Shown: piece by piece, positions 11,391 to 61,543 of the stretch
Layout of the letters: every line of letters starts with the position of its first letter
How positions within the stretch are numbered: the first letter of the stretch is position 1
NCBI RefSeq assembly: GCF_003234085.1
Contig: NZ_QKSD01000008.1
Location: forward strand, 1 to 64,000
DNA length: 64,000 nucleotides
Direction: 5' to 3'
Origin: Curtobacterium sp. MCPF17_052
GTDB taxonomy: Bacteria > Actinomycetota > Actinomycetes > Actinomycetales > Microbacteriaceae
Made by a program: the position numbers and the translations under genes
Notes under the pieces: model-generated
What the model was told of the DNA's origin: nothing
Seen by the model: the letters and a program-made list of their open reading frames with translations, nothing else
Database searches by the model: none

Positions 11391-12083
11391 TTGCCCGGGC
11401 TCCGTGGAGCGGTCTTACGAGCGTCAGCACCGGAACGGCGGGACGCGACACGGCACCGCACGGCACGGCACGGCCGAGGGAACTGGCTCCCGACAACGGA
11501 GTCCAGTTCACAGATGCCCAACCGAGAAGTTATAGCTGCTCTAGATGCTGATGAGAGCCATAGTTGCGTCGCCGAAAGAACGCAATCTGTGCCGACGGGG
11601 ATCTCGGTTGGTAGCTTGCTCGTTACGGCGACCCTTTCCGACGGTTGCGAGCGCTATCCCACGGTGCGGTCACTCCCAGAAGGCGTCCTTTGGTGGATCC
11701 TATAATCGGCGGGCACCGAGGCGGAGACTCTTCGAGCGCGCGTAATGAACCAAGACCTGACAATTACAGTCGCTCGTCCGACGCACATCCCGCGAGGGCC
11801 GAGCGGAGGCATTCGCTTCATTTCGCACGCCGGGAGATATCAGCACCATCAGGGGGAATATCGACCGGAAGAGGTAGCGCCGGCGGCGGAAGCACGCCCG
11901 TGCCTCGGAAGTTGTTGCGGCGGTCCCCGCCTCCAAGTAATCGGCAACTTTCGCGCCGCGCAGCCTGCTGCCCGGTGCGTCCCTCGTAGTGGGGGGCACG
12001 CAAGAAGTGCGCGATCCTCGACTCTTGCTACTGTAGATGGGTCAGATGTTTGGATCTTGGTTTACAAGCATGGGGGTAGCGGC
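11391..12083. other. Noncoding stretch upstream of the AIPR gene
   Basis: Nearly 700 bases without a convincing gene. Composition falls from GC-rich to mixed. A short tandem run of CACGG/CGGCA units lies near 11448-11475. The AIPR reading frame stays open back to 11745, but this part translates to Arg/Pro-rich sequence with no family match, so it is treated as untranslated. It presumably contains the AIPR promoter; I could not place it. Confidence 0.5.
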
Positions 12084-14240
12084 ATGGGGTCGGCTGATCG
12101 GGCAGTTGTTGCGAAGCTTATTGAGGAGTTTGGGCAATCAAACTATCCGGGCGTGCACGACGATAAGGTGTTCGAACGCTTCGCTGTTGTGCAGTGTCTG
12201 AAACCTGTTGACCTCGGATTTGATGAGATCGAAGATGGGATTGTTGACGGAACAACCGACGGTGGAGTCGACGCCGTGTTCACGACCGTTAACGACATGC
12301 TCGTCGAGCCCGACAGCCCCTTCCTGGAAGCGAACTCGGACGCGATTGCTGGGCTGTCGAGAAACTTTGACCTGCGACTTCATATCGTCCAATCGAAGAA
12401 CCAGACTTCATGGGCGGAGTCAGTGTGGGAAAAGCTGCTTTCCGCATTACCGGAGCTTATATCGCTCGAATCGGATTTCGATGAGATTCGAGGTCGAGTC
12501 AAATCCGAGGTTGTCGACAGGTTCGACATTTTTCGTTCCTTGCTTCTGAACACTGCGTCGCGCTTCCCTCTCGTGACGGTACGAGTGTTCTATGTTTCGA
12601 AGGGTATAGCTGCGAACCGGACCAAATCTCTTACCGCGAAGGCAACGAAGGTGGGAGAAGCACTGCAATCGGTGCTGCCCTCCAAGGCGTCAGTCGAGAC
12701 CGTACACGTTGGCGTAGAGGAACTCTATGAAAGGACTGGATGGGCGATCTCGAAGCCAGCGACCCTTCGGTTCAGGGACCTTGTCGAAGTAGACGGCGCG
12801 GTCCTCGGGGTTGCGACCATTCAAAGTTTCCTGGAATTTATCCGCGACGAATTTGGCGTGCTTCGGCAAGACATATTCGATGCTAACGTGCGAGACTACG
12901 AGGGCAAGAACGCGGTGAATGGGTCTATCTTGGCGACCCTATCTGAACCGGAAGCTACCCCCTTCTGGTGGCTGAACAACGGGGTGACCGTGATCGGGGA
13001 TGAGTTGCAGAAGTCGGGTGCCTCTGTCGTTGTGGACCGACCCCTGATCGTGAATGGCTTGCAGACAAGTCACGTCATCGACTTAGCCGCGCGCCAGCAA
13101 AAGCTTGTGCCGGAGCGCGCTTCCGACGGAATTGTCGTTCGAATCCTGGAAAGCGATGACGAAGTTGCTCGCGATAAGATTATCGCCAGCACGAACAATC
13201 AGACGAAGGTGCCGAGCTCCGCGCTATACGCGTCCCAACCGGAGCAGCGCGAGATCGAGCGTTTTCTCGCGATGCACGACTGGTATTATGAGCGCAGAAA
13301 GAACTTGTACCGCAACCGGGGAGTTGACCCTGCTCGGCGTGTGTCAGTTGGACTTTTGGCGCAGGCCATGATTGCGCTCCTATTGAAGGAGCCGGACACC
13401 GCGCGAGCCCGGCCTTCTACCGGTCTGAAGCGGAATTACGAAGACCTTTTCGCGTCAAGTCTCAATCTCGAGGCCTACCTTGTGGCATTGCGGACGCTTT
13501 CGCAGACGGATGCATTCCTGAAGTCGGAAAAAGCGAGGTCAGTATCAAATGACATTTCAAATGTCCGATTTTACATGCTTGCGGCCTACGCGCTTCGTGC
13601 GTCAAATGTAGGGAGTGTCTCTGAGTTTGATTACACGCAAGCATGGAGAAGGATTCCGAAGGAATTTGACTCTGACATCGCCACAGCGGCGCTCCTACGC
13701 ATCGAGGCAATCGCCAAATACTCGATCACGGATCGGCCTGGGGCTACGCGAGATGCTCTGTTCAAGAATGCGGACTTCAGATTGTCCGTGCTAGAGGCAG
13801 CTATTTTGAGTGACGTCGAACCTCCAGTACTAGCGAAAGAATTCTCAAGCTCAGTTATATCTTGGATCGGAAGTAAGAGCGCGGACGGCCGCGTGAACGC
13901 AAACGTTCCGGCGATGACTCTCCTCGTCCTCCGGAGGGCCATCGATCAGCTGCCGGTCGACCGCTTGAGCTACCGGACTAGCCGCGGGCACCTGTCAGGA
14001 TTGAATGGGGGTTTTGTTAATCGTGTGCTCCGAGAGCACGGATATGCCCAGAGCTTCACTTCGGAGGCTGGCCGCACCTCTCGGGGAACTCTCGCCTTGG
14101 CCGATGAATTCACGGATTGGGTCAACTCTTGGGCATCAAAGAACGTACTTGTAGACTCCAGAAGTGTTCGCTCGGTACTGGTTCAGGCCGCCGAGGCTTC
14201 AGTGATCGATTTCATCGTCGATCAGAAATTGGCTGTCTAG
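12084..14240 (+). CDS. AIPR family (abortive infection phage resistance) protein
   Basis: This 718-residue protein contains the AIPR domain of phage-resistance loci. The diagnostic part runs from about residue 275 to 430: NAVNGSILATL, FWWLNNGVTVIGDEL near residue 294, RPLIVNGLQTSHVI near 320, IIASTNNQTKVPSSAL near 366, and a helix with YYERRKN and ISVG-like RRVSVGLLAQAM. The N-terminal 100 residues hold GTTDGGVDAVFTTVND and LRLHIVQSKNQTSW, resembling a PD-(D/E)XK core (Asp, then Gln-x-Lys). The ATG at 12084 with GGGGGTA upstream is chosen over the longer open frame. Base composition is clearly lower in GC than the surroundings. It converges with the GIY-YIG/methyltransferase operon, with 42 bases of overlap. 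Its likely role is phage or plasmid defence. Confidence 0.87.
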   Translation: MGSADRAVVAKLIEEFGQSNYPGVHDDKVFERFAVVQCLKPVDLGFDEIEDGIVDGTTDGGVDAVFTTVNDMLVEPDSPFLEANSDAIAGLSRNFDLRLHIVQSKNQTSWAESVWEKLLSALPELISLESDFDEIRGRVKSEVVDRFDIFRSLLLNTASRFPLVTVRVFYVSKGIAANRTKSLTAKATKVGEALQSVLPSKASVETVHVGVEELYERTGWAISKPATLRFRDLVEVDGAVLGVATIQSFLEFIRDEFGVLRQDIFDANVRDYEGKNAVNGSILATLSEPEATPFWWLNNGVTVIGDELQKSGASVVVDRPLIVNGLQTSHVIDLAARQQKLVPERASDGIVVRILESDDEVARDKIIASTNNQTKVPSSALYASQPEQREIERFLAMHDWYYERRKNLYRNRGVDPARRVSVGLLAQAMIALLLKEPDTARARPSTGLKRNYEDLFASSLNLEAYLVALRTLSQTDAFLKSEKARSVSNDISNVRFYMLAAYALRASNVGSVSEFDYTQAWRRIPKEFDSDIATAALLRIEAIAKYSITDRPGATRDALFKNADFRLSVLEAAILSDVEPPVLAKEFSSSVISWIGSKSADGRVNANVPAMTLLVLRRAIDQLPVDRLSYRTSRGHLSGLNGGFVNRVLREHGYAQSFTSEAGRTSRGTLALADEFTDWVNSWASKNVLVDSRSVRSVLVQAAEASVIDFIVDQKLAV

Positions 14241-15017
14241 AGCGGACGTACGTTCCTCCGTTGATTCGCTCAGCAGATTGCCAACAAGAGCCTGGGTGTT
14301 GATAGCATCTGCGGTCGGTCTCGACCGACCCTCGGCGTACGCGAGCCGAGCAGCAGCTAGGTCGGCGAGCCGGATGGCTTGAATCACGATCACCCGTCGG
14401 AGTCCCGCGGAGACCTCCCCCCTCTCGTGGGCGACTGCAGCTACCCGTCCTAGGGTCTCTGCGCGCCGCGCGATTCGAACGTCGGGGTGCTCACGGTCCT
14501 CCCGGAGTTCGCTTGGAATCAAGGAAAAATGATAGGATCGTGGCAGTTCGATTCGTCTCGAGCGAGGCGGAATCTTCTCATTCAGGATTGCTCGATACTT
14601 TGATTCCTCGATCGCAGTGAGGTATGCGGAATATTCGAGCTGATCAATAGCCGTCGTTTTTTCCTTCGACGGGAGCTGTCGAGTGTGCTCCGCCGGCCAC
14701 AGCTCCACCTCCGCCACCTCGAACGGATCGAGGATGCGGTAAGCGAGGGTGTCTGTCCGTTGGCCTCGGAGATGTCTGCCAACCCGAGTGGCGAAGTCTT
14801 CCTTCGTTTGGCCGACGTAAATTGGCTCGCCGTCGTAGTCGTAGAAAGCGTAGACACCAATACAATTTCCGAGGCGCTTTCCGGAGTCTTCATCGACGGC
14901 ATTAAGCGCTTCGGAAAGAAGTTGCCTGAATCCCCGCACGAATCTGGTGGGGAGTGAATTTCTTGCGGGAGGTTGGTGGTCTGGTTCGTTGTACGATGCG
15001 ATACCGCGGCTACCCAT
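14199..15017 (-). CDS. GIY-YIG nuclease family protein (candidate restriction enzyme)
   Basis: This 272-residue protein has an N-terminal GIY-YIG nuclease domain: GVY at residues 54-56 (IGVYAFYDYDGEPIYVGQT), YVG at 67-69, a conserved Arg at 78 (FATRVGRHLRG), and the metal-binding Glu at 128 in DQLEYSAYL. A C-terminal region of about 130 residues, ending in an acidic tail, is unassigned. The ATG has a good ribosome site (GGGAGGTGG). It overlaps the stop of the cytosine methyltransferase gene by 8 bases, so the two are co-translated. This is the layout of a type II restriction-modification pair in which the nuclease is of the Eco29kI/Hpy188I type. The assignment as the cognate nuclease is inference. 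It is AT-richer than the core genome. Confidence 0.82.
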   Translation of the reverse strand: MGSRGIASYNEPDHQPPARNSLPTRFVRGFRQLLSEALNAVDEDSGKRLGNCIGVYAFYDYDGEPIYVGQTKEDFATRVGRHLRGQRTDTLAYRILDPFEVAEVELWPAEHTRQLPSKEKTTAIDQLEYSAYLTAIEESKYRAILNEKIPPRSRRIELPRSYHFSLIPSELREDREHPDVRIARRAETLGRVAAVAHERGEVSAGLRRVIVIQAIRLADLAAARLAYAEGRSRPTADAINTQALVGNLLSESTEERTSALDSQFLIDDEIDH

Positions 15018-16200
15018 CGTGGACCACCTCCCGAGAGTGATCTGAAGTTGTAGGTCGACCAGCTAATGGGCGAAGGTAATTCTCACTCAGCCAGCGTACA
15101 ACTGGAACTGCAACCGCGTCTCCAAACGCAAACAGGGCCTGGTTTGTGCGGGCTGCGCTGAGGTCAAAATCGCCGGCCCCCATCAAACGAGCATATTCTA
15201 GCGGGGTCATCCAACGGACCTTTATGTCGCCTAACCCCAGGCGAACGACAGCCTGTTTCGATGACCCGCCACGAGCGGTACGGAGGCAGCCTGAGATGTC
15301 GTCGGGCCTAACTTCCCAAGTTGCGACGCCATTCCTTGTTCGACGATAAGCGGTTCGGTAAGTAAATTCCCCTGCGGATTTTAGCTTGTTGACGCGGTCG
15401 AGCTGTATGGTCGACAGTGATGTCTCAAACTTGTTGACACGCTCTCCATCCCACCACCGGCTATCGTCATCGCCCATTTGTTCTACCGTGTCAGAAAGTC
15501 CTGTGGTCATGATTGGCGGAGGAGCAGGCAGGGCTGCTCGATGTGTTCGTAAGGAGGGGTCGGCAAAGAACGATTGTAGAAAAGCAGGTCGTAGTTCGTT
15601 TGGTTTTTCGTCGGCACTCAGGGGAGTCTCGAGGCTAGCAACGACGAAGAGACGTGGCCGCGATTGGGGTACGAATCGGCGGGCATCGATTGTCAAAACA
15701 TCGACGGAATAGCCTAGGCTATTAAAGGCTTTGATCGCGGCGGTGAGATCATCACCGCCGTGCGAGCTCGCGAGTCCTACGACGTTCTCGAGGACGGCAA
15801 TACGAGGGCGATCCTCTTCTAGTTCAGCGAGAAGCTTCACAAAGTGCCAAAACGCCATTGATTCGCCAGACTGCAAGCCTCCTCTTGAACCTGCTAGCGA
15901 CAGGTCAGTACAAGGAGAAGAAGCCCACGCCACGGTGGCGTTCTTGGGCAACTGGTCTACGCTGACTGAATGGATATCGCCGACGACATAGTTATGTTTG
16001 TCCGCATTCTCGAATTGTTTCTTGTACATCTCGAATTTGGCTGGCTCATAATCATTGGCCCAACTCACTTCGAAGCCGGCTGCTTCTAAGCCTAGGCGAG
16101 CGAGTCCGATCCCTGCGAAGAACTCGAGTACTTTTGGGCGCTCGTCCGGTCCGGGTGTGAGGTTTGGCACGTCTTCGAGACTACCTGCGACCGCCGACAC
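15010..16200 (-). CDS. dcm: DNA cytosine-5 methyltransferase
   Basis: This 396-residue C5-cytosine DNA methyltransferase uses S-adenosylmethionine. The motifs are in canonical order: I, VLEFFAGIGLARLGLEAAGF (from residue 24); IV, SSPCTDLSLAG with the catalytic Cys97; VI, AVLENVVGL near 135-143; VIII, RRFVPQSRPRLFVVAS near 173. A variable target-recognition region follows, then motifs IX-X (EYARLMGAGDF and FGDAVAVPVVRWL). A GTG start at 16200 gives this N-terminus; another GTG 30 bases downstream is possible, and neither has a strong ribosome site. The gene leads an operon with the GIY-YIG gene. The lower GC than the flanking DNA supports transfer. The target sequence cannot be read from the protein. 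Confidence 0.9.
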   Translation of the reverse strand: MSAVAGSLEDVPNLTPGPDERPKVLEFFAGIGLARLGLEAAGFEVSWANDYEPAKFEMYKKQFENADKHNYVVGDIHSVSVDQLPKNATVAWASSPCTDLSLAGSRGGLQSGESMAFWHFVKLLAELEEDRPRIAVLENVVGLASSHGGDDLTAAIKAFNSLGYSVDVLTIDARRFVPQSRPRLFVVASLETPLSADEKPNELRPAFLQSFFADPSLRTHRAALPAPPPIMTTGLSDTVEQMGDDDSRWWDGERVNKFETSLSTIQLDRVNKLKSAGEFTYRTAYRRTRNGVATWEVRPDDISGCLRTARGGSSKQAVVRLGLGDIKVRWMTPLEYARLMGAGDFDLSAARTNQALFAFGDAVAVPVVRWLSENYLRPLAGRPTTSDHSREVVHDG

Positions 16201-16716: not shown

Positions 16717-18270
16717 CTAGTTCTCGACGGAGGAGTGCGCGCGCCAGCCATTGCCATTGACGGTCGCAAGCTTCATTGACGAATCAGCCAGAAGTCCCAG
16801 ACCGAGCAACGATGCCGTAAGCGGCACCGACCCGGGTGAGGTCAACGGAGCCACTGAAGCCGACTGCGCCTCCAGATCAGCCAGCACCGAGTCGGACACT
16901 CCGAACAACAACGTCGCCACGAACCCGACGACGTACGCCACCACGAGCCCGACCCGTACCCGAGCAACGCCCACCTGTACCCGGACGAACCGTTCAGTAG
17001 CGCGATGAGCGACAGGTCGGACGCGCCGACGGCGATCGCCCCGATTGAGTGCCCGAGCTGCCCGAACAACCCGACGACACCGCCACCGAACGCTCCACCG
17101 ATACACGCGGTGATGAACGGCCGACCCAGGGGGAGCGTCACTCCGTAGATCAGGGGCTCACCGACACCGAGGAACCCGACTGGCAGCGCACCCCGAATGG
17201 TCCGCACCATCGAGGCGTTCAAGCGGAACCGCACCCACAGCGCTATGCACCGATCTGCCCGGCACCACCATCGCGAGCACCGGCAGCAGCATGGTCCACC
17301 CGGTCTGGTCGATCAGGGTGGTCTGAATAGGGGTGAGCCCCTGGTGCATGTTGGTCATGACGAGCGGCAGGAACAGGCTTCCAAGCACGAAGCCGGCGAA
17401 GGCTCCACAGTTCGCGAGCAGCCAGGTCGCAGCGGTGTCGTTAGCGACCGAGACGACACCCGCGACGCACATGAGCACGCCGAGGGTGATCGAGCCGGCG
17501 ACGAGCACGGTCACGGTCGGCACCACGATGAGTGCGATGACGTCGGGCGTGATCCGACGTATGAAGCGCTCGACCCACGCGGCGAGGATGCCGCCGGCCA
17601 GTGCACCGAGCACACCGCCCTGCCCGGGCGTCAGGGTCTCGCCGAACACCGTGACGTTCGCGACACCGGCTGCGACGATGATGCCGTCGACCGCACCGCC
17701 GAGGACGGGCGTGCTGCCGAACTCCTTCGCGGCGTTCATGCCGACGAAGACGGCGAGCAGCGAGAGGATTCCGGACGATAGCACCCCGAGGAACGGCGTC
17801 ACCCCGGGCACCTACCCCAGGTTCGTCAAGATGCCGTTGATACCGGCGATCAGCCCGCAGGCGATCAGCGCGGGGATGAGCAGGATGAAGATCGCGGAGG
17901 TCTTCCGGATCGCGCGCATGGTGCGGCCGTCTGAACGAGCCCGCGCAGTTGCCTTGATCTCGGCTCCGCAAGCCGCGAGTTCTTCAGGTGAGGACCCACC
18001 AGCCGCAGCCGACGGGGCGGCCGCGCGCAGAGCTTCCAGGCCATCGGCCACGCGGTCGACGAGACCCGGGCCGAGCACGATCTGCAGGTTCGAGCCGGCC
18101 GCGATGGTGGCCATGACGCCGTCGGTGGACTTGAGTTCTTCGAGCGCGACGGACGAGTCGGACACGACCTCGACCCGCAGGCGGGTCATGCAGTTCTCGA
18201 CGTCGGCGATGTTCGCGGAACCGCCGACGGCGCCGAGGATCTGCTGGGCGAGTTGCTGGGCATCGGGCAC
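16717..18270 (-). pseudogene. Broken PTS EIIBC permease (murP-like)
   Basis: This is a phosphotransferase-system EIIB-EIIC permease of the glucose/sucrose/MurNAc family with several lesions. From a GTG at 18270 the EIIB domain is intact and keeps the phosphorylated Cys (DVENCMTRLRVEVV). EIIC begins IFILLIPALIACGLIAGING and is cut by an in-frame TAG at 17812-17814. The same frame resumes GVTPFLGVLSSGILS and continues through several membrane helices. A deletion and frameshift near 17240 leads to [20 protein letters not shown] and [13 protein letters not shown] in another frame, and a second shift near 17000 leads to the C-terminus in a third frame. Three independent defects make sequencing error unlikely. 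The adjacent murQ remnant suggests an N-acetylmuramate transporter. Confidence 0.85.
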
Positions 18271-18313
18271 TGCTGTGCTCCTCGGGAAAGGGGAAACGGA
18301 AAGGGGAACGGGG

Positions 18314-18616
18314 CTACAGAACTGCGCGCAACGAGCCAGCAGCAGCATCGAGGCGAGAACGCACGTCGGCCGCGGAGGCGCCGGTCAGGATCACGGCGAT
18401 GGCGGTCTTCACCTCGCCGTCCGAGGCATCGAGCGCCGTCTGGACCTCGGCGGGGGGAGCGCCCGTGATGGCGATGTCGGCCTCCCGCCCCGCGGCCGAG
18501 TCAAGGTTGCACGCTACGGAGACCGACAGGGCGGAGCGGCGCGGGGCCTCCAGGATGGCCGCGATCACGTAGGGCGTCCTGCCGGACGCGCTGATCCCGA
18601 CGACCTCGTCGTCGGG
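18314..18616 (-). pseudogene. murQ: murQ remnant (N-acetylmuramate-6-phosphate etherase)
   Basis: About 100 codons remain. The N-terminal side gives EVVGISASGRTPYVIAAIL, the conserved SIS-domain Ser-x-Ser-Gly-Arg-Thr loop of MurQ, then ACNLDSAAGREADIAI. Directly after it comes the MurQ C-terminus (ALDASDGEVKTAIAVILTG, then ASAADVRSRLDAAAG). The roughly 100 residues between these parts in intact MurQ are deleted, as is the first third of the gene. The stop lies 44 bases upstream of the murP-like relic, so the two formed an operon for recycling or scavenging MurNAc that has been lost. No gene is seen from 18617 to 18840. Confidence 0.82.
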
Positions 18617-18840
18617 ATCAGGTAGAGCGGCAGTCCGAGGACTGCGCCGTGCGAGCGCCTGCAACGTTTACAGACGTTCGTTGCCGCAGTCGGCTACTGA
18701 ACCTCATCACGGGCGAGGATCGAACCCTCCTCGCGGTGAACGAGTTTGAGGCGGAAGCGGGCGCCGAGCGAAAGCGGGAGCGCGGCTGCTATCTGGGCGT
18801 TGGCGCAGCGCCGCGATCACGGCTCGCGCGGCGCTGCCCC

Positions 18841-19140
18841 TCACCCCATCCGGTGCAGCCCTGTCGGCGTCCCCGGCCCCTCAGCCCGGGTGCTTTCCGC
18901 GGCCACGAGTCGCCCCACGGTCGCCCTTCGGACCGTGTCCGGCTGCAACTCCACCCCCGAGCACCACTTCGCGCAACCGCCGCAGCTCGGTCTTCGTGAA
19001 CGGTCTCCCGTAGCTGCGCCACCGCGTACTCGAGGATTTCGTCGTGCGCTTGCACCATCGCCCCCGCTGAGGCGACGGGCACCAGGCGCGCCCGCTCTTC
19101 GTCGATCGGCAGGGAGACAGCTGGCACGACGTCGAGGTGA
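18841..19140 (-). pseudogene. Truncated second nrtR copy
   Basis: This segment matches residues from about 103 to the C-terminus of the intact NrtR at 22701-23345. It reads HLDVVPA, then RARLVPVASAGAMVQAHDEI and LEYAVAQLRE. After a deletion of roughly 40 bases it shifts frame to VVLG-like GVELQPDTVRRATVGRLV, ending AEGPGTPTGLHR. The first half, with the Nudix part, is absent. The break lies only 11 bases from the stop of the epeB-like gene. Many substitutions separate the two copies, so this is an old paralogue or duplication. Confidence 0.8.
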
Positions 19141-19151
19141 CGACGTCGACT

Positions 19152-19907
19152 TCACATCGGCAGGAAGTCGAACCTACGAACTTTGGCGAGGACAGCCCAA
19201 GCAGCGGCCAACACGATCGCGGCGATCAGGTTCAAGACGATCGACAGACCCGAGATCGGCGGCAGGAAGCCACCGCTCGGACCAGTGAGGGTCAGCGGCA
19301 GGATGTTCGCGTAGAGGTTGACCGTGAACAGCTGCCCCCCGACGCCGATGAAGAACTCTTGCGTGTTCGGCGCCCCGATCCGCCAGAGCAAGACGGCCTG
19401 CACGCCGATGACGACGAGCAGCCCGACGGCGAAGAACGAAGTCGAAACTCCTCGACCACGGAGCACTTTCGACAGCGTTGCGAGGAAAGTCACCGAGAGC
19501 AGGAACGCCGCGATCGAAACGACCTTCGCCAGCGTCACGTACCCGATCACGGCTGCCGCGTCTGCTCCTGCGGGTTCGAGGAGGCTCTGCAGCTGCAGAC
19601 CGACCGTCAGGAGGTGCTGGACGGTGAGCAACACGGCGAGGACGCCCAGTTTGAGGCCGACGAGCTGCCAGCGACTTCTGGTGCTGATCTGGAACAGCTG
19701 GTCACGCCCGAGAACGACGAACGCGAACACCACGACGGCTGAGTAGACAGTCGTCGCGCTCCAGCACAACAAGGTGCACAGCGCTCGTATGACGTCCAAG
19801 GTGACGATGTTGGATGCGAGCACGGCGGCTACGCCGGTCACCGTCGTGGCGAGGTACGCGGCGACGAACACCGGCAGGTGCTTGCGGAACTCAACGCGCC
19901 AGAGCAT
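19152..19907 (-). CDS. epeB: Epipeptide ABC transporter permease (EpeB/YydJ-like)
   Basis: This 251-residue integral membrane protein has about six hydrophobic spans (roughly residues 11-32, 42-66, 84-104, 120-145, 156-174 and 220-244). Charged loops and the WRVEFRKHLPVF start are typical of ABC-2-like permeases of small exporters. It overlaps the end of the ATPase gene by 17 bases and is last in the operon, the position of yydJ (epeB) in Bacillus subtilis. There EpeAB protects the producer from its own epipeptide. Sequence similarity to YydJ cannot be judged by eye; the assignment rests on topology and gene order. Only 11 bases beyond its stop, the truncated nrtR relic begins. Confidence 0.82.
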   Translation of the reverse strand: MLWRVEFRKHLPVFVAAYLATTVTGVAAVLASNIVTLDVIRALCTLLCWSATTVYSAVVVFAFVVLGRDQLFQISTRSRWQLVGLKLGVLAVLLTVQHLLTVGLQLQSLLEPAGADAAAVIGYVTLAKVVSIAAFLLSVTFLATLSKVLRGRGVSTSFFAVGLLVVIGVQAVLLWRIGAPNTQEFFIGVGGQLFTVNLYANILPLTLTGPSGGFLPPISGLSIVLNLIAAIVLAAAWAVLAKVRRFDFLPM

Positions 19908-20577
19908 CAGCGGAGATCACTTCCTTGACTCGTGCTTCCAGACCGCCGCGTGCAGCAATCGCATGGACGTCTTCGCGCAGGACGAGCGCACCGTCGTGCA
20001 CGACGATCGCTTCGTCGAAGAGGTCTTCCAGTCCTGCCACGAGGTGCGTCGAGATGAGCGCAGTGGAACCTGACAAGCGGTGCTTTCCGATCAGATGCAC
20101 CAAGCGGTCCCGTGTCCAGGGGTCGACAGCGGCGAGCGGTTCGTCGAACACGTACAGCTGGCAGCGTCGGCTCAGGACGAGGCCGAGGTGGATCTGCTCC
20201 GACATCCCCTTGGATGCCTGGCTGACCCTGAGGTCATCGGGAAGACCGAGCTCGGCGAAGATCCTCCGAGCGACGTCGGCATCGAAGTCTGACCACAGCT
20301 GCTGTGCGAGTGCGACGCACTGATCGAGTCGGAGGTGTCCGTAGAGGAATGGTGCGTCGGGGAGGTAGGCGATGGAGTTGCCGTGGCGGGAGAGCACTCC
20401 GCGGTACCTGTTGATCACCCCGCACATCGACCGTATGAGTGTGCTCTTGCCGGCCCCGTTCTGACCGAACAGCCCGATCACGTGGCCCCGGTCCTCGATC
20501 GTCAGTGAGAGGTCGTCGACGGCGGTTCGACGGCCGAACCGCACGGTCAAGCCTTGGATCGTCAGGAGGTCAGGCAA
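19891..20577 (-). CDS. epeA: Epipeptide ABC transporter ATPase (EpeA/YydI-like)
   Basis: This 228-residue single-domain ABC ATPase has Walker A GLFGQNGAGKSTLIRSMCGV (residues 35-54), a Q-loop-like AYLPDAPFLYGHLRLDQ, a degenerate signature ASKGMSEQIHLGLVLSR, Walker B LYVFDEPLAAVD, and the H-switch LISTHLVAGLEDL. The ATG overlaps the stop of the protease gene by 8 bases, and its own end overlaps the permease by 17 bases. The pair should form an exporter or an immunity transporter at the cytoplasmic membrane. In B. subtilis the equivalent YydIJ (EpeAB) confers self-resistance to the YydF epipeptide. The place in the operon supports that role here. Confidence 0.88.
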   Translation of the reverse strand: MPDLLTIQGLTVRFGRRTAVDDLSLTIEDRGHVIGLFGQNGAGKSTLIRSMCGVINRYRGVLSRHGNSIAYLPDAPFLYGHLRLDQCVALAQQLWSDFDADVARRIFAELGLPDDLRVSQASKGMSEQIHLGLVLSRRCQLYVFDEPLAAVDPWTRDRLVHLIGKHRLSGSTALISTHLVAGLEDLFDEAIVVHDGALVLREDVHAIAARGGLEARVKEVISADALAR

Positions 20578-21331
20578 TGAGGTTCCTTGTCAGTGCGAGG
20601 GTGGTGCGGATGACCACGAAGACGATGAAGACGACGCCCGCGACCTTGATGCCGATCAGCCACGGGGGGTTCGCCGGGAGAGTGCGTGCAGCGTCGACGC
20701 CGGCTAGGGCGAGGAGCACCCGGTAACCGTCGGAGTTCAAGATCGGTACGACGTTCCAGGCCACCGCTATGAAGACCAGGTGTGCCGCGACTTCGATGCC
20801 TGAGGACCGGACGGCCCAGGTGTTCCCCACCAGCAGGAGGGCGTTGGTGGCGAGGTTCGCCAAGATGCCGGCAGCATGGACGATGACCTGTTCCTGTCTG
20901 CTCAGGAGCAGGCTCTGGTTCATCCGGACGTAGAACGCCGGGAAGACCCGGTAGTTGAGTTTGAACCCGACACGATCGACCGAGCGGCCGAATCCGCGGA
21001 GCACGAGGATGTGTGCTCCTTCGTGGATGAGGACGGAGAACACCAGGTAGACGGCCGCTGCGATCGCTGCTGACGAGTCCTCCGGCGTCGTGCTCGTCGG
21101 CAGGAGCATGGCATTGACTGCGAGGAGTGCCGGGAGCGTTCCGACGGTGCTCCACGCAGCCCAGGTCGGAGCAGACGACCGCCGGATTCGCGCGGCGGTC
21201 CGTATCGACTCGGGCAACGAGTCGACGGGGGCGCGGTAGTAGGTACGCTCCAGGCGATCGAAGACCACCGCGTGTCCGCCAGAGATGCGGAGTTCGCATC
21301 GATCATCGGCGTAGACCTGATCAGGCCGCAT
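20570..21331 (-). CDS. epeP: M50-type membrane protease (EpeP/YydH-like)
   Basis: This 253-residue polytopic protein has site-2-protease features: the zinc motif HEGAH at residues 103-107 inside a membrane helix (VFSVLIHEGAHILV), and the third ligand in NVVPILNSDG at 193-202, matching the family's Asn-x-x-Pro...Asp-Gly pattern. About five or six spans are seen. The N-terminal 50 residues are soluble (RCELRISGGHAVVFDRLERT). The frame is open much further upstream, but the ATG at 21331 overlaps the radical SAM stop by 11 bases as in the other junctions of the operon, so it is chosen. YydH (EpeP) is thought to cut the leader from the modified precursor; here the expected cut is just before the Trp of the 18-residue core. 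Confidence 0.88.
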   Translation of the reverse strand: MRPDQVYADDRCELRISGGHAVVFDRLERTYYRAPVDSLPESIRTAARIRRSSAPTWAAWSTVGTLPALLAVNAMLLPTSTTPEDSSAAIAAAVYLVFSVLIHEGAHILVLRGFGRSVDRVGFKLNYRVFPAFYVRMNQSLLLSRQEQVIVHAAGILANLATNALLLVGNTWAVRSSGIEVAAHLVFIAVAWNVVPILNSDGYRVLLALAGVDAARTLPANPPWLIGIKVAGVVFIVFVVIRTTLALTRNLIA

Positions 21332-22274
21332 CGACAGCTGCCCAGTACGCGTCGACCTGTGGCCTGATGAGGGCGATCGATTCCTCGTCCCTGAAGACGA
21401 TCGAGCACAGTTCGCAGGCCGAGACCACTTCGGTGACCGTGGCGGCGGGTGCGTCCGGTGCGACCCGCCGTATCGCGTCGATGAACCACTGGAACCCCTC
21501 GCGCTGCATGATCCCGAGCAGGGCATTGCGCTCGAACGTGTCGACCACTTGCTGGAACGACTGTGCACCTGCCCGGCCGAGTGTCATCCTCGTGTCGAAG
21601 ATCGGCGGCGAACAGCATGGGTACACGTTGCCGTCGTTGTGGAAGATCACCTGATTCCCCGGGCAGTGCAGCATGCCCCGGGTGATCGGGCGGCGGTGGA
21701 AATCGGACTCCGGAAGCGATCGTGCCTCGCCGGCAGGAACGACGGGGAACTGGGTGACCTGGATGCCGTGAACGCTGTCACCGAGTTCTGCCAGCAGTGC
21801 GCGAGAGTCCTGCGATCGACTCACGCACATGTTGAGCACGACCTTGATACGTCTGTCGTGCGAAGCATCGAGGATGTTCCTGATCCGCTCAGGTTTGACG
21901 TAGGGCGAGTGGAAGTCGTCGTAGCTCAGCGTGAGCTCCCGCAGTCCGGCATCCTCGAACTCGGCCAGGACTCGGTCTGCGGCTCGGCGTGTGACCCCCC
22001 AGAAGCCGTTGGTCACGCACGAGGCCACTCGTCCGCTGGCGGTGATCCGGGCGATGATCGACATCGTCCGAGCCCGCCGGATGAGGGGCTCACCGCCGGT
22101 GAGGCCGATCTCGCGCACATTGGGCTCGCGGAGGAGCTCGTCGACGATGTTGTCGACAAGGTCGTCGTCGAGGTTGGCCGTCGCGTTCGGAGAACTGCTG
22201 ACGCAGCAGTGTGCGCATCGTGCGTTGCACTTCGAATCGAAGTTGATGCCGACGCTCCAGCGTGGCTCAGCCAT
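21321..22274 (-). CDS. epeE: Radical SAM peptide epimerase (EpeE/YydG-like)
   Basis: This 317-residue radical SAM protein has the cluster motif KCNARCAHC (Cys16, Cys20, Cys23) and the SAM-binding GGEP at residues 60-63 in LTGGEPLIRRA. The C-terminal part has five cysteines: Cys204 (LHCPGN), Cys220-Cys221 (NVYPCCSPP), and Cys287 and Cys290 (ACELC). These could bind an auxiliary cluster and supply the thiol hydrogen donor that YydG uses when it turns L-residues of the precursor into D-residues. Which Cys donates cannot be told from sequence. A ribosome site ACGAGGA precedes the ATG. The gene lies 62 bases after the precursor gene and overlaps the protease gene. Predicted job: epimerise Val32 and Ile40 of the precursor peptide in the cytosol. 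Confidence 0.9.
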   Translation of the reverse strand: MAEPRWSVGINFDSKCNARCAHCCVSSSPNATANLDDDLVDNIVDELLREPNVREIGLTGGEPLIRRARTMSIIARITASGRVASCVTNGFWGVTRRAADRVLAEFEDAGLRELTLSYDDFHSPYVKPERIRNILDASHDRRIKVVLNMCVSRSQDSRALLAELGDSVHGIQVTQFPVVPAGEARSLPESDFHRRPITRGMLHCPGNQVIFHNDGNVYPCCSPPIFDTRMTLGRAGAQSFQQVVDTFERNALLGIMQREGFQWFIDAIRRVAPDAPAATVTEVVSACELCSIVFRDEESIALIRPQVDAYWAAVDAA

Positions 22275-22336
22275 GGTTTGTCCTCGTGTTGCTGTCGGGA
22301 AACAGTGGGCCCCCGCCCCGATCCCCGGACTGGTGA

Positions 22337-22477
22337 TCAGCCCTTACCGCTGCCGACGATCACGGCGCCGCCGCTTCCGACGACGAAGTACCACAGGTCG
22401 TCCACGACGTCGAGTTCTGCAACCCTGTCGTCCAGCGTGAAGCTCTGGAGCATGTTGGCGCTCTCGTTGTTCTGCAT
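22337..22477 (-). CDS. epeX: Epipeptide precursor (EpeX/YydF-like)
   Basis: This 46-codon gene encodes the RiPP precursor. The leader begins MQNNESANMLQSF and contains the acidic stretch LDDRVAELDVVDDL. The last 18 residues (29-46) are WYFVVGSGGAVIVGSGKG. The B. subtilis epipeptide is WYFVKSKENRWILGSGH: the first four residues, the Ile at core position 12 and the GSG at 14-16 coincide without a gap, as does the DL just before the Trp. The two residues that YydG epimerises (Val and Ile) therefore correspond to Val32 and Ile40 here. The middle of the core is Gly/Ala-rich rather than charged. The ribosome site AAAGGAGGG three bases before the ATG is nearly perfect and stronger than any neighbour's. 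The gene is too short for routine gene callers. Confidence 0.93.
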   Translation of the reverse strand: MQNNESANMLQSFTLDDRVAELDVVDDLWYFVVGSGGAVIVGSGKG

Positions 22478-22519: not shown

Positions 22520-22560
22520 CGTGCAACACCATACTCAAATCCAGAACATCAGACCAGCAC
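22520..22560 (-). promoter_or_regulatory. Possible epe operon promoter
   Basis: The only AT-richer stretch between nrtR and the precursor gene. Read on the minus strand it carries a -10-like TATGGT (22528-22533) with TGA-rich sequence before it but no clear -35 box. It would give a leader of about 45 bases before the epeX start. Weak evidence. Confidence 0.3.
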
Positions 22561-22678
22561 TTCCGTGATTCGGGCGCGACGATCTCGCCGCGACGCTGCC
22601 GCGACGCTGCCGCGGTGTCGTCGACCGGCTCGCTCAGTGCCTCTGGGGGCACGGGTGCGCGAGCAGGGCTCCCGCGAC

Positions 22679-22700
22679 GAGCGACACGCTGCTGTCGCTC
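22679..22700. terminator. Short hairpin after nrtR
   Basis: An 8-bp stem (GAGCGACA/TGTCGCTC) with a 6-base loop lies exactly after the nrtR stop. It probably separates nrtR transcription from the epe operon. No U-tract follows. A short tandem CGCGACGCTGC repeat lies nearby at about 22588-22609. Confidence 0.55.
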
Positions 22701-23345
22701 TCACCCCCGCCGGTACAACCCCGCCGGCTTCCCCGGCCCCTCCGCCCGCTTCCCCTCGGCAATCACGAGCCGCCCCACCATCGCCCTCCGGAACGTGTCT
22801 GGCTGCAACTCCACCCCGAGCACCACTTCGTGCAACCGCCGCAGCTCCGTCATCGTGAACGGCTCCGCCAGCAGCCCGTGCGGGTCCGGCCGCTCCCGAT
22901 GGTCCTCCCGCAGCTGTGCCACGGCGTACTCGAGGATGTCGTCGTGCGCGTGCACCATCGCCCCCGCTGCCGCGACGGGTACCAGGCGCGCCCGCCCGGG
23001 GTCGATCGTCAGGGCAGCGGCGGGCACGACGTCGAGGTGCGCCACCGACAGCACCCACCCCCGGGAGTCCCGCGCCGGGTCGTCGAACACGTGCAGCTGC
23101 CGCGGCGCGAGCCCCTCGACGCCAGCCTTCTCGCGCAGGGACCGCAGCACCGAGTCGGCGAGCCGTTCGCCCTCGTGGACGAACGTCCCCGGCAGTCGCC
23201 AGTCACCGTCGACGGCATCACGGACCTGCAGGACCGACAGCTCGCCGTCGACGACGGTCAGGACCGCGGTGTCGACCGCCACGGAGGGGTGCGGGTATTC
23301 CGCCAGACGCTTGCCGCTCGGGTCGCGGTACTCGGTGTCAGCCAC
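22701..23345 (-). CDS. nrtR: NrtR-family Nudix-related transcriptional regulator
   Basis: This 214-residue protein has an N-terminal Nudix-fold domain (about residues 18-140) with a degenerate Nudix box: GTFVHEGERLADSVLRSLRE then KAGV, where the second catalytic Glu is Lys. The C-terminal winged helix is FTMTELRRLHEVVLGVELQP, DTFRRAMVGRLV, ending GKPAGLYRRG, the mark of the NrtR group. NrtR proteins sense ADP-ribose-type ligands and repress NAD or ADP-ribose genes. A GTG at 23345 is preferred because it leaves the palindromic sites at 23356-23374 and 23396-23421 upstream. An ATG at 23378 would place one of them inside the gene. It is divergent from an ADP-ribosylglycohydrolase, the likely target, with autoregulation possible. 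Confidence 0.87.
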   Translation of the reverse strand: MADTEYRDPSGKRLAEYPHPSVAVDTAVLTVVDGELSVLQVRDAVDGDWRLPGTFVHEGERLADSVLRSLREKAGVEGLAPRQLHVFDDPARDSRGWVLSVAHLDVVPAAALTIDPGRARLVPVAAAGAMVHAHDDILEYAVAQLREDHRERPDPHGLLAEPFTMTELRRLHEVVLGVELQPDTFRRAMVGRLVIAEGKRAEGPGKPAGLYRRG

Positions 23346-57654: not shown

Positions 57655-59460
57655 TCAGGCCCGACGACGCCGTGCGCGCAGGGTGAGCAGCGCCACACCG
57701 GACGCGAGCAGGCCGAGGCCCCAGGCGATCGGACCCGTCGTGTCGGCGCCCGTGAAGGCGAGGCTGCCGGTGGTGCCGGTGCCGGTGCCGGTGGTGCCGG
57801 CGGACGGGACGACGGTGACGGGGAACGTGGTCGAGACACCCTGGCTCGTGACGGTCAACGTGTGCGTCGACGCGTGCGGGAACGTGACGTCCGCGTTCCA
57901 CCCGGCCCGCTCGACCACGTCCGAAGCGACGTCACTCGTCACGGTGTCGGGCGTCCTGCCGTCCCAGTCGCCGTCCAGCGGGACCGTGATGTTGCCGAAG
58001 GCGTCGACCGGCGCCGCTGCGATCCGCAGCGTGCCGCCCTGCGGGACGGTCGGGCGGCCACCGGTCGTCCGCTCGATGTCGTGCTGCGGTCCGTTCGGGA
58101 ACCAGGTGGTCTCCACCGAGCCGTCGGGCTGGATCGTCCAGGTGCGCTGCTCCCGCAGGTCCCCGGGGCGGGTCACCGTCACGAGGGCACCGACCGCCGG
58201 AGCGGGGGCCGTGCGGAGGTCGACGTACTGCGTGGCGGTCTGTTCGCCGGAGGTCGCGACGACGGCGAACGTGTAGTGGGCCGCCTGGGTGTCCGTGCCG
58301 CTGAGCACCCCGGTGGTCGGGTCCAGCGTGATGCCCGCCGGGAACGAGGCGCCGATGTCCGAGGCCGGGAACGGCTGCCCGTCCGGCCGCACGATCGAGT
58401 AGCGCACCGGCTCGTCGACGGGCCCTCCGGAAGCCTGGAACGTGTGCGAGAACGCCTTGCCGGCCTGCGCGAGGAGCTGGACGGCGTGGTCCTCGGTCGT
58501 GCCGCCGGTGAAGGACAGCCCGCCGTCGTCCTCCGCCGGGGCGACGGACAGCAGGATCCGCTCCGACAGCCCATCGCCCGGGTGGTACGGCGTCGTGACG
58601 TGGACCCAGATCTGGTCGCGGAGCGGCGTCGAGGATTCGAGGGTCCCGGAGAGCACCCCGTCCTCCGAGAGGGTCACGCCCGCGGGCAGCACGCTCGGGT
58701 CCGCGGTGCCGCTGATGGAGCCGTTCACGAAGAAGGACAGGTCGGGGTTGTCAACGGGAGCGAGGTCGACGGAGAAGGGCTCACCGCTGGTCACCGGGAC
58801 GACGCGCTGGCCGTAGATGAACCGCCGGTCGGAGTCCTCGACGACGACCGTGCTGCTCGGTGCACTGGTGACCGACGTCGGCGTCATGCCGGGAGCCGTG
58901 CCGGTGACGGTGACCGTGAAGGTGCCGTCGGCCTGCTCCGGGTCCACGACGTAGGTCCGCTGGGTGCCCTGGTCGCGGTTCGCGAGGACCGGGTGGTGGA
59001 AGTCCCACCGGTACGTGAAGGTCGTGCCCGCCGGCCAGCCGGCCGTGTCCGCGGAGATGGTCTGCCAGGCGCGGGTCGTGCCGACGATCGCGACCGTGCC
59101 GGCAGGGGTCGCCGTCGGGGCGTCCGCGCTCGGCGTGGGCGTCGCCGCAGCGGGGGCGACGGTGGCCGGGACGGCAGCCTCCGGGAGCGTCGGCGCTGCG
59201 GGCGTGGCCGTCGGGGCCGGCGGGGTCGTCGCGGCCGGGGTGCCCGCAGCAGCGCTCGCCGGGCCCGCAGCCGAGTCGGCGGTCGGGCCGTCGGCCGGTG
59301 CGTCGACGCTGGTGGACGTCCCGACGGCAGCGTTCGGTGCGAGCTCGTCGGCCGAGGCGCTGACCGCCCCGATGCCGAACGCTGAGGACGCCGCGACGAT
59401 GGCGACGGCGGAGCCGATGGCCGCGATCCGGTGGATCGGCGGCAGGCAGGTCTTGTGCAT
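57655..59460 (-). CDS. LAxTG-anchored surface protein with Ig-like domains (paralogue 2)
   Basis: This 601-residue cell-wall protein starts with MHKTCLPPIHRIAAIGSAVA, then IVAASSAFGIG, a signal peptide identical to that of the next gene. A Thr/Ala/Pro-rich linker (about 45-115) is followed by beta-rich domains: WPAGTTFTYRWDFHHPVL, LPAGVTLSEDGVLSGTLESS, FPAGITLDPTTGVLSGTDTQ. These are repeated He_PIG-like Ig units. The end is LAFTG, the helix IAWGLGLLASGVALLTL and RARRRRA. The 5' end and upstream 175 bases are nearly identical to those of the gene at 59767. The function is probably adhesion or wall structure. Confidence 0.87.
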   Translation of the reverse strand: MHKTCLPPIHRIAAIGSAVAIVAASSAFGIGAVSASADELAPNAAVGTSTSVDAPADGPTADSAAGPASAAAGTPAATTPPAPTATPAAPTLPEAAVPATVAPAAATPTPSADAPTATPAGTVAIVGTTRAWQTISADTAGWPAGTTFTYRWDFHHPVLANRDQGTQRTYVVDPEQADGTFTVTVTGTAPGMTPTSVTSAPSSTVVVEDSDRRFIYGQRVVPVTSGEPFSVDLAPVDNPDLSFFVNGSISGTADPSVLPAGVTLSEDGVLSGTLESSTPLRDQIWVHVTTPYHPGDGLSERILLSVAPAEDDGGLSFTGGTTEDHAVQLLAQAGKAFSHTFQASGGPVDEPVRYSIVRPDGQPFPASDIGASFPAGITLDPTTGVLSGTDTQAAHYTFAVVATSGEQTATQYVDLRTAPAPAVGALVTVTRPGDLREQRTWTIQPDGSVETTWFPNGPQHDIERTTGGRPTVPQGGTLRIAAAPVDAFGNITVPLDGDWDGRTPDTVTSDVASDVVERAGWNADVTFPHASTHTLTVTSQGVSTTFPVTVVPSAGTTGTGTGTTGSLAFTGADTTGPIAWGLGLLASGVALLTLRARRRRA

Positions 59461-59635
59461 TGGGTTCCCCCCTGGGATGACGTGTGGCCGGGCTGCCCGA
59501 TGGCGTGCCCGTAGCCAGATCGTAGGGTCCGCAGAGGCCGCGGAACCGGTCGACACGGTCACGAAACCGTCACGGAAAACGTGCCGAGAAACCCGTCATG
59601 ATCGGGGATTTCCCGACATGGTGCCCTCAGGATCG
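59371..59635 (-). repeat. Duplicated segment, copy 1 (265 bp)
   Basis: It covers the first 90 bases of the gene ending at 59460 plus its promoter region and ends in GGTGCCCTCAGGATCG. The second copy, exactly as long, is 61279-61543. The left and right thirds are near-identical, the middle diverged. Both include a repeated CGTGAC motif and a -10-like TACGAT or TACGCT region upstream of the start. In copy 2 the far end is the last codons of the lysR gene, so copy 1 holds a stranded lysR tail. Confidence 0.85.
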
Positions 59636-59766: not shown

Positions 59767-61368
59767 TCAGGCTCGACGTCGACGCACCCGTGCCACGAGG
59801 AGCGCCGCTCCGGCCGCCAGCAGACCGAGGGCCCAGGCGATCGGCCCGGTCTCGTCGGCACCCGTGAAGGCGAGGTGGCCGGACGGCGCCGAGCCACTGC
59901 CGGGGCTGCCCGTTCCGGACGCGGTGCCACCGGCGGCCGCGGGGGTCGTCGGGGTGGCAGTCGTTGCCGTCGCCGCCACGCCGACCGTGAAGCTGATCGT
60001 CCGGCCGTCGGGGGCGGTCCCCGTGAGCGTCCGGACGCCGGGCGAGGAGAACGTGACCGCCGTGCCCGGGTCGTACTTGCCGAGCGTGTCACCGGCGACC
60101 GAGGAAGCCCAGTCGTCGTCGATGACCGGGATCGGCTGGCGGTTGCCGTAGCGGTCGACCAGGCCGGTGTTCACGGTGATGGTCGAGCCCACCGTCGACG
60201 TGATGGGCGTGGACGCCGGCGCCTGGTCGTCCGAGAGCGCGTCGAGGTACTCCGTCGTCCCGTCGGCCGACACCGTCCAGGAGCGGGAGTGTGGCGGGTC
60301 GTAGTCCGTCACGAAGGCTCGTAGTTGCGTGTCCGCCGCCAGGCCCACCGTCAGCTGCACGTGCTGCCCGGGCGCTCCCGCGGGTTCCTGGGAGGTCCGG
60401 GCCAGGACCCAGAAGTCGACGACCTGGGCCGTCGTGGTGGACCCGGAGAGCACGCCGTCGCTGGACAGTGTCAGCCCCGCGGGGAGGGCTGCGGCGTCGA
60501 TCGGACCGTCGGCCGACGAGCTCACGCCGTACCGGAGGCTTCCCTGGTCGCCGGTCAGTGCCTGGATCGGCACCGAGATCGTCTCGCCGGCACGAGCCGT
60601 GAGCTCGCGGACACCTGCGCCGGTGAACGTCGTCTCGTTGTTGAAGTCCGCGTGGACCGGGGCGCTGGTGACGGTCGTCGGGTCCTCGCCCGGTGCGGTG
60701 CCGGTGACCGCGACGGTCAGGTCGCTCGTCGCGTCCGGGTGGCCGAGCACGTAGGTCTCGCTCGTGGCGCCGGCGATGACGCGCGTCCCGACGACCGGCC
60801 CCGACAGGGTCCACTGGTAGGTGAAGGTCGTGCCGGCAGGCCAGCCGTCGGTCACGGCGCGGAGCGTGTGCCAGGTCGTGGCCGTCCCGGTGACCGCGAC
60901 GGTGCCGGCTGCCGTCGCGGACGGGGCGGCGGCTGCGGTCGGCGTGACGGCCACCGGCGTGACGGCCACCGGCGTGACGGTCGTGGTCGTCGCTGGTGCG
61001 CGAGGGACGGTCGGTGCAGCCGGTGCAGCCGGTGCAGTCGGTGTCGTTGTCGGTGCGGGCGTGGCTGCCGGAGTGGGTACACCGTGATCGCGGCCGGTCT
61101 CTCCCGGCGCAGCGTCGGCACCCGAGGTCGAGCCGACCGCCGGATCGGTCGGACCGGTCGCTGGCGCGCCGACCCCGGTGGTCGCGCCGACCCCGGTGGA
61201 CGCGTCGGCACCCGTGGACGTCACGACACTCGTGTCCGGCACCGACTCGTCAGCGGAGGCGCTGCTGACGCTGACGCCGATGCCGAACGCTGAGGACGCC
61301 GCGACGATGGCGACGGCGGAGCCGATGGCCGCGATCCGGTGGATCGGCGGCAGGCAGGTCTTGTGCAT
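59767..61368 (-). CDS. LAxTG-anchored surface protein (paralogue 3)
   Basis: This 533-residue protein shares its signal peptide and 5' region with paralogue 2 (MHKTCLPPIHRIAAIGSAVA start). The linker is Thr/Ala/Asp-rich with TPVAVTPVAVTP-like short repeats. The domain part contains WPAGTTFTYQWTLSGPVVGT, LPAGLTLSSDGVLSGSTTTA, and VDRYGNRQPIPVIDDDW, equivalent in position to the He_PIG-like unit of paralogue 2 but with fewer units. It ends with LAFTG, the helix IAWALGLLAAGAALL and VARVRRRRA. It was probably produced by duplication of paralogue 2 followed by divergence of the domains. The gene start has the ribosome site GGGGGGAAC. Confidence 0.87.
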   Translation of the reverse strand: MHKTCLPPIHRIAAIGSAVAIVAASSAFGIGVSVSSASADESVPDTSVVTSTGADASTGVGATTGVGAPATGPTDPAVGSTSGADAAPGETGRDHGVPTPAATPAPTTTPTAPAAPAAPTVPRAPATTTTVTPVAVTPVAVTPTAAAAPSATAAGTVAVTGTATTWHTLRAVTDGWPAGTTFTYQWTLSGPVVGTRVIAGATSETYVLGHPDATSDLTVAVTGTAPGEDPTTVTSAPVHADFNNETTFTGAGVRELTARAGETISVPIQALTGDQGSLRYGVSSSADGPIDAAALPAGLTLSSDGVLSGSTTTAQVVDFWVLARTSQEPAGAPGQHVQLTVGLAADTQLRAFVTDYDPPHSRSWTVSADGTTEYLDALSDDQAPASTPITSTVGSTITVNTGLVDRYGNRQPIPVIDDDWASSVAGDTLGKYDPGTAVTFSSPGVRTLTGTAPDGRTISFTVGVAATATTATPTTPAAAGGTASGTGSPGSGSAPSGHLAFTGADETGPIAWALGLLAAGAALLVARVRRRRA

Positions 61369-61543
61369 TGGGTTCCCCCCTGGGATGACGTGCGAGCGGG
61401 CCGCCCAGTGGCTGGCCCGTGGCCAGAGCGTACGGCGCGAAAGTGTCGCGGAACCGTCCGGGATGGTCACGAAACCGTCACGGAAAAAGTGCCCGGAAAC
61501 CCGTCATGATCGGGGATTTCCCGACATGGTGCCCTCAGGATCG
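61279..61543 (-). repeat. Duplicated segment, copy 2 (265 bp)
   Basis: The same structure as copy 1 at 59371-59635: signal peptide codons, leader, promoter and the final codons of lysR (stop at 61535-61537). Equal length with many exact blocks, for example GATCGGGGATTTCCCGACAT. Confidence 0.85.

Follow-up and report, generated by a model that had tools for sequence, protein, structure and literature searches.

An actinobacterial operon of the epeXEPAB type in Curtobacterium sp. MCPF17_052

We have analyzed a 64,000 nucleotide (nt) stretch of DNA from the actinobacterium Curtobacterium sp. MCPF17_052 (contig NZ_QKSD01000008.1, positions 1 to 64,000), which we call the window. Five intact genes are found on its minus strand, from 22477 to 19152, in the order of the epeXEPAB (yydFGHIJ) operon of Bacillus subtilis. 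Very probably they form a complete operon of this type. Its predicted product, a peptide with a length of about 18 residues, would be epimerized, cut and exported, and is likely to kill neighbouring Gram-positive bacteria by way of their membranes. The genes, the families of EpeE, EpeP and EpeA, the catalytic residues, the gene order, the purifying selection and the register of the target residues directly support the operon. The genes are:

epeX, 22337..22477, minus strand: precursor peptide, 46 amino acids (TIGR04077, E 2.8e-8)
epeE, 21321..22274, minus strand: radical S-adenosylmethionine (SAM) peptide epimerase of the YydG family, 317 amino acids (TIGR04078; PDB 8ai1)
epeP, 20570..21331, minus strand: M50-type membrane metalloprotease, 253 amino acids (NF058609 YydH/LiaK; PF02163)
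epeA, 19891..20577, minus strand: ATPase of an ATP-binding cassette (ABC) transporter, 228 amino acids, TTG start (PF00005)
epeB, 19152..19907, minus strand: predicted membrane subunit of an ABC transporter, 251 amino acids (position, hydropathy, co-conservation)

The gap between epeX and epeE is 62 nt, the other genes overlap: epeE and epeP by 11 nt, epeP and epeA by 8 nt, epeA and epeB by 17 nt. An earlier note on this DNA had described five minus strand genes with short gaps or overlaps in the epeXEPAB order, and all these open reading frames are present. The motifs it named are also found: CxxxCxxC in EpeE, HEGAH followed by NSDG in EpeP. Families have been assigned by scanning the Pfam and NCBIfam profiles with their curated cut-offs. 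The ratios of nonsynonymous to synonymous substitution rates (dN/dS) against the orthologues of another Curtobacterium genome, G015, are 0.21 for epeX, 0.11 for epeE, 0.35 for epeP, 0.14 for epeA and 0.30 for epeB, which shows that the operon is under purifying selection. Family scores, dN/dS values and a gene order kept in other loci indicate that the operon is real, beyond chance.

EpeE scores 304.1 bits with TIGR04078 (YydG), above the curated cut-off of 300, and the best of the other NCBIfam families only reaches 42.2 bits. This profile test agrees with the family proposed in the earlier note, which had named as contrary evidence a far better score with another maturase family of ribosomally synthesized and post-translationally modified peptides (RiPPs); no such score has been found. 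EpeE can be aligned to the solved structure of B. subtilis YydG (PDB 8ai1) over residues 7-311, with E 1.7e-66. The CxxxCxxC motif of the radical SAM cluster corresponds to C16, C20 and C23. Across nine aligned sequences these three residues never vary, and neither do C24, C204, C220, C221, C287 and C290. C221 is found opposite residue 248 of the 344-residue 8ai1 chain. This residue is presumably Cys223, if the chain has 25 added residues (we take the native length to be 319). Cys223 of B. subtilis YydG is the proposed hydrogen donor (PMC8326336, PMC5682303). By this mapping, which depends on that native length, C221 of EpeE appears to occupy the place of the donor.

The precursor may be divided as follows, with a putative cleavage site and putative epimerized residues:

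EpeX leader: 22477-22394, minus strand
Predicted core peptide WYFVVGSGGAVIVGSGKG: 22393-22340, minus strand
Predicted epimerized Val32, codon 22384-22382, minus strand
Predicted epimerized Ile40, codon 22360-22358, minus strand

The mature B. subtilis peptide, EPE, is given as WYFV(D)KSKENRWI(D)LGSGH (PMC7026026). When WYFVVGSGGAVIVGSGKG is compared without gaps to WYFVKSKENRWILGSGH, Val is found at core position 4 and Ile at core position 12, in register with both epimerized residues. Like EPE, the window core starts with WYFV, has GSG near its end and has its target residues eight positions apart. The residues between the two sites are VGSGGAV in the window and KSKENRW in B. subtilis, with 0 of 7 identical. 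A single Lys is the only charged side chain of the window core, while the B. subtilis core has two Lys residues, one Arg, one Glu and a His. A manual count gives charges of about +1 and about +2, and for this reason the two peptides may act differently.

We have aligned 11 actinobacterial precursors, the window included, six of them from loci and five from a protein search. L22, D26, D27, W29, I40 and G42 are invariant, and position 32 is either V or I. The core has V or I at position 4 and I at position 12 in G015 (WYFVVGSSGGVIVGSG), Curtobacterium sp. Leaf183 (WYFVVGQGGAVIVGG), Microbacteriaceae bacterium VKM Ac-2855 (WYFIVSEHGGWIMGS), Cellulomonas (G1246, WYFINSGNGKWIAGA) and also in G884, a genome in the order of Enterococcus, Lactobacillales (WYFVKSSSGAWIAGSGR). 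Across all loci, Trp at core position 11 recurs in several, while Lys5 and Ser6 are present in both Bacillota. The core register is likely what selection keeps. The protein search also gave identical or near-identical precursors, P0040, P0041 and P0042, on 6, 5 and 1 contigs. PF27801, a Pfam family outside the copy that we have used, is marked on 5 of 9 precursor homologues. The comparison of EpeX with solved structures gave nothing meaningful (best E 0.12).

EpeP scores 29.5 bits with PF02163, above the cut-off of 27.2, and its H103-E104-xx-H107 motif and D201 are invariant in 5 of 5 sequences. We have also considered a daptide cluster and rejected it: EpeP is weakly similar to the daptide protease family (NF041824, 56.3 bits, cut-off 300), and the YydG-family maturase sets this operon apart. 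A co-directional ABC ATPase and a predicted membrane subunit follow epeP. EpeA matches PF00005 with E 9.8e-15 and is 45-79% identical to the EpeA proteins of five other actinobacterial loci, and a conserved epeB follows epeA in six actinobacterial loci, including the window. The earlier note attributed immunity to the ABC pair, which only holds in part. EpeAB is the autoimmunity transporter in B. subtilis, while the main resistance to added peptide is due to LiaIH (PMC7026026, PMC12871923). The window belongs to contig C30 of a genome (G000) which is 76.6% complete. One PspA/LiaH-family gene is found above the cut-off in this genome, on contig C29, 177616-178308, and could play the part of LiaIH.

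In the mechanism that we propose, EpeX would be translated and EpeE, by its radical SAM chemistry, would abstract the C-alpha hydrogens of Val32 and Ile40, as YydG does with those of Val36 and Ile44 (PMC8326336, PMC5682303). Cys221 would give the hydrogen back from the opposite face, leaving D-residues. EpeP would then cut before Trp29, in the membrane, and the product would be WYFVVGSGGAVIVGSGKG with D-Val4 and D-Ile12; EpeAB would protect the producer. In B. subtilis, EpeP presumably cleaves the precursor and sets free EPE, which depolarizes and stiffens membranes (PMC7026026, PMC12871923, PMC10885120).

The full five-gene order is found in six actinobacterial loci, including the window (the others are L018, L021, L067/L004, L019 and L113). 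Besides the window, complete loci are present in Curtobacterium sp. Leaf183, G015, VKM Ac-2855, Boudabousia and Cellulomonas. Their genes and gene order are like those of the window, their flanks and the middles of their cores differ. The similarity of EpeB is weak for Boudabousia and Cellulomonas, which show 26-27% identity, with E 9e-10 for the first and 3e-5 for the second. Public annotation already calls the VKM Ac-2855 protein (P0013) YydG family; its EpeE reaches 331.9 bits with TIGR04078. G884 also has the five-gene order, with a PF00005 ATPase and a last gene that has no Pfam match. A variant is found in G195 and G1032, two species of one genus in the family of Boudabousia, whose loci are near-identical (L020, 4048-8078, and L114, 4108-8138). 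Like the window, they have a short precursor with a W-H-F-I core start, a YydG-like enzyme and an M50-like protease. Unlike the window, their core WHFITCGIIIGSGGC has two cysteines, and an FtsX-type permease (PF02687) followed by a different ABC ATPase (PF00005) replaces epeAB.

Few of the sampled genomes in either phylum have the epe system. Using either TIGR04078 or an EpeE search, and counting the window genome, epeE carriers are 3 of 66 genomes of Curtobacterium species and 5 of 198 relatives; for the order and the phylum the counts are 5 and 1, each among 396 genomes. On the other side, we have detected it once among 395 genomes from the order of Enterococcus termitis and in 2 of 246 relatives of G884, the second of them below the cut-off. 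In the Curtobacterium scan, only the EpeE of the window is above the TIGR04078 cut-off, with 292.9 bits for G015 and 285.8 bits for G045. Both protein searches scored only the 7998 candidates that had the most words in common with the query, so the match lists are lower bounds. Nine records with 21-32% identity (L005-L013) come from Lactovum, Enterococcus, two Streptococcus, Chromatiales, Aestuariibacter and three other gammaproteobacteria. The first four have been rejected as members, their genomes only reach 79.5-86.2 bits with TIGR04078. In the Lactovum and Streptococcus records L005, L009 and L011, a longer open reading frame with a hydrophobic stretch rich in Ala, Val and Gly precedes the radical SAM gene, by reading a possible different precursor family. 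Another distant epimerase-like gene (242.4 bits, below the cut-off) is found in L099, 2653-8924, with an ABC ATPase gene before it and a LytTR regulator and an AgrB gene after it; by reading, a kinase, a short peptide and an M50-like gene are also present.

A tree of EpeE with 48 rows separates ten known actinobacterial rows, the window included, from three Bacillota rows, with 96/94 on the branch. The actinobacterial side also holds 35 metagenomic or unlabelled rows. The tree includes 40 of the 52 EpeE-like proteins; P0031, P0034-P0039 and P0057-P0061, which are fragments or distant, have been left out. It is an unrooted tree, drawn from its midpoint, and one Bacillota row, G992, is a long branch below the family cut-off, so that it speaks for the separation and not for the direction of descent. 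Within this limit, the separation of the actinobacterial and Bacillota EpeE makes a recent transfer from Bacillus unlikely.

The surroundings of the operon include the following features:

Predicted promoter region TGATGTTCTGGATWTGAGTAKGGT, 22528..22551, minus strand: block 5' of epeX common to the G015 operon
nrtR-like Nudix/winged-helix gene, 22701..23345, minus strand: intact, upstream (PF21906, PF00293)
Degraded second copy of the nrtR-like 3' end, 18840..19139, minus strand: 12 bases past epeB

The upstream homology between the window and L018 stops at 22551. Four close relatives without epe (G007, G019, G020 and G025) match the window at 91-93% rightwards from the end of nrtR (22675-22708). 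On the other side, 10-11 kb of the same four genomes do not match the left part of the window, except for the nrtR copy. Other cargo is found behind nrtR in such relatives: an N6 methylase and an AAA ATPase in G007, a C5 cytosine methylase in G020 (L055, 1-10265; L056, 5227-16001). For this reason, we regard the nrtR 3' end as a putative hotspot of insertion. The nrtR copy (18840-19139 against 22700-23039) is 74% identical over 341 gapped columns; when gaps are left out, 254 of 299 columns agree. A block with phosphotransferase system (PTS) and MurQ-like genes is found 0.4 to about 5 kb from nrtR in 12 of 17 further Curtobacterium loci. In the window, the PTS EIIB and SIS-domain (MurQ-like) genes of this block, at 16717-18664, are broken, and 193 bases of the relatives are missing at 18467. 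The operon is thus found at a variable position, with one copy of the nrtR 3' end on either side. The G+C content of the operon is 63.9%, against 69.4% in the window, and the third-position G+C of its genes is 77-87%, against 92% in two genes on its right, as would be expected of acquired DNA.

Two other operons are bracketed by direct repeats. In VKM Ac-2855, the repeat has 870 bases and 99.9% identity (L067, 5028-5897 and 9941-10810) and includes an FHA gene and the start of the next one; in Boudabousia it has 227 bases and 96% identity (L019, 3850-4076 and 8892-9118). With the window, three of the nine loci thus have such repeats, each of a different host sequence; among the nine, L020 is a near copy of L114. 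Self-comparison of L018, L021, L020, L066, L113 and L114 gave no bracketing repeats. The bracketed layout would result if a circle were integrated by a single crossover. As controls, we have taken 21 epe-free Curtobacterium loci of 8-16 kb, all from one genus, with the count made after the pattern had been seen: 3 of 21 have a direct repeat of at least 150 bases and at least 70% identity, none above 82%. One of these three, in epe-free L086, is a second nrtR piece (227 bases, 81%), so nrtR duplicates also arise without epe, which weakens the idea that the repeats are specific for the cassette. It is also weakened by the best of the other repeats in the window, 59277-59635 and 61176-61543 (about 369 columns, 83%), which is unrelated to the operon.

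Several results weigh against an epeXEPAB-type operon that makes an active epipeptide. EpeX scores 33.6 bits with TIGR04077 (YydF), below the cut-off of 35 (E 2.8e-8), and EpeP scores 164.6 bits with NF058609 (YydH/LiaK), below the cut-off of 225 (E 3e-48). The YydG score and the Val/Ile register support the epipeptide identity proposed in the earlier note. That two of the three system-specific cut-offs are missed would fit models built mainly on Bacillota. EpeB has no match in Pfam or NCBIfam. It is hydrophobic by hydropathy and helical in a poor model, with a predicted local distance difference test score (pLDDT) of 58.8. A scan of the promoter for the sigma-70 consensus gave zero sites (0.4 are expected by chance). 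Against Leaf183, for which three genes were computed, dN/dS values are higher for epeX (0.51) and epeB (0.59), with 0.19 for epeE. The core spacing is not universal: The Boudabousia core WYFIKKGGNWILGSG has V or I at position 4, but its second Ile is at position 11, one residue nearer, and the G195/G1032 core is shorter, with its two cysteines. Among 14 control genomes, B. subtilis is alone above the YydG cut-off, so the function rests on few studied relatives. The middle of the window core is uncharged and differs from the B. subtilis middle at every residue, so the activity of EPE cannot be assumed for the window peptide. Deletion of epeP in B. subtilis leaves some peptide (PMC10885120).

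The epimerized peptide might also be a signal or a factor directed to kin, as in cannibalism, instead of a weapon against other species, a possibility that we consider rather improbable. Public annotation labels two precursor homologues, P0044 and P0045, as "YydF family exported signaling peptide", and EPE is described as a cannibalism toxin and intra-species fitness factor in B. subtilis (PMC12871923, PMC7614699). On the other hand, the peptide genes are followed by an ABC pair in each of the eight actinobacterial loci seen (epeAB in six, the FtsX-type pair in two), which suits immunity to a toxic product, and we have noticed no regulator gene common to the flanks of the loci, where no systematic check was made. 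It is quite unlikely that the cassette is a decaying remnant, with intact but silent genes in a variable region with broken genes. The broken neighbours with their lost bases and the absence of sigma-70 sites would agree with a remnant, but the five open frames with the dN/dS values found against G015, the precursors repeated on several contigs (P0040-P0042) and the upstream block common to G015 argue against it.

That a maturase of another kind acts on EpeX, forming thioether or carbon-carbon crosslinks, is very improbable. EpeE has a SPASM match (PF13186, 27.2 bits, above its cut-off), as found in crosslinking maturases, but no NCBIfam family other than YydG comes near the score of YydG with EpeE, and Cys221 is kept. 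A sactipeptide or ranthipeptide (thioether) system has been rejected for the same low scores and because EpeX has no cysteine: The precursor itself cannot supply a thioether.

The preferred interpretation, an operon that makes an epimerized antimicrobial peptide, may be extended, in a way that we find tentative and rather doubtful. There might be an old actinobacterial branch of epipeptides, with D-residues eight positions apart, in which the Curtobacterium core would have a neutral, glycine-rich middle in place of the charged one of Bacillus, and would act as a neutral, membrane-spanning or pore-forming peptide and not as a cationic one. The cassette would travel as a unit and land between duplicated host pieces: nrtR in the window, the FHA gene in the case of VKM Ac-2855, and a further repeat for Boudabousia.

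By its title, the paper of Popp et al. 2021 places the epe locus in Firmicutes, and its abstract reportedly describes it as restricted to them. Passages of other papers consider it "conserved among Firmicutes" (PMC12871923) or "widely distributed among firmicutes" (PMC7614699), and the epipeptide examples they name are from Bacillota only (PMC8326336). They bear out the remark of the earlier note that such loci are known mainly from Bacillota, and so does the host, Curtobacterium, together with the different core, its suggestion that an actinobacterial member would extend the class. Among the matches listed, we have recognized no paper in the open-access literature that describes an actinobacterial epipeptide locus, and found no open-access paper dealing with epipeptides and Curtobacterium together. 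Epipeptide clusters have been tried in E. coli without success (PMC9576775); the host species, which the passages do not name, could include actinobacteria.

Judged from its sequence, we consider that the operon is a case of the known epipeptide class extended from Firmicutes to a second phylum. Since sequence-family models and public annotation already name some of its parts, it is an extension, not a new kind. It resembles B. subtilis epeXEPAB in gene order and roles (PMC12871923, PMC7026026), YydG-family epimerase, M50 protease and ABC pair, and differs from it in phylum, in the VGSGGAV middle of the core and in the scores of precursor and protease. Proteusin epimerases of the PoyD type also epimerize Val, Ile and other residues of a RiPP by radical SAM chemistry. 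They are described as having one cluster only and no significant homology to EpeE (PMC8326336), which sets them apart.

If the actinobacterial branch works, this would suggest that the class is defined by the pair of D-residues with their spacing and not by other parts of the core. The sequences between the sites (KSKENRW, VGSGGAV, NSGNGKW, VSEHGGW and KSSSGAW) form a natural substrate set to probe recognition by EpeE. A working branch would also point to a ribosomal antimicrobial in Curtobacterium, which is found on plants and in soils.

A low G+C block is found near the epe operon, at 11745-16200. It contains an AIPR/AbiU-like protein of 831 amino acids which ends in DUF4928 (restriction-enzyme-like), a GIY-YIG protein and a C5 cytosine methylase, and is likely a restriction-modification or abortive-infection locus.

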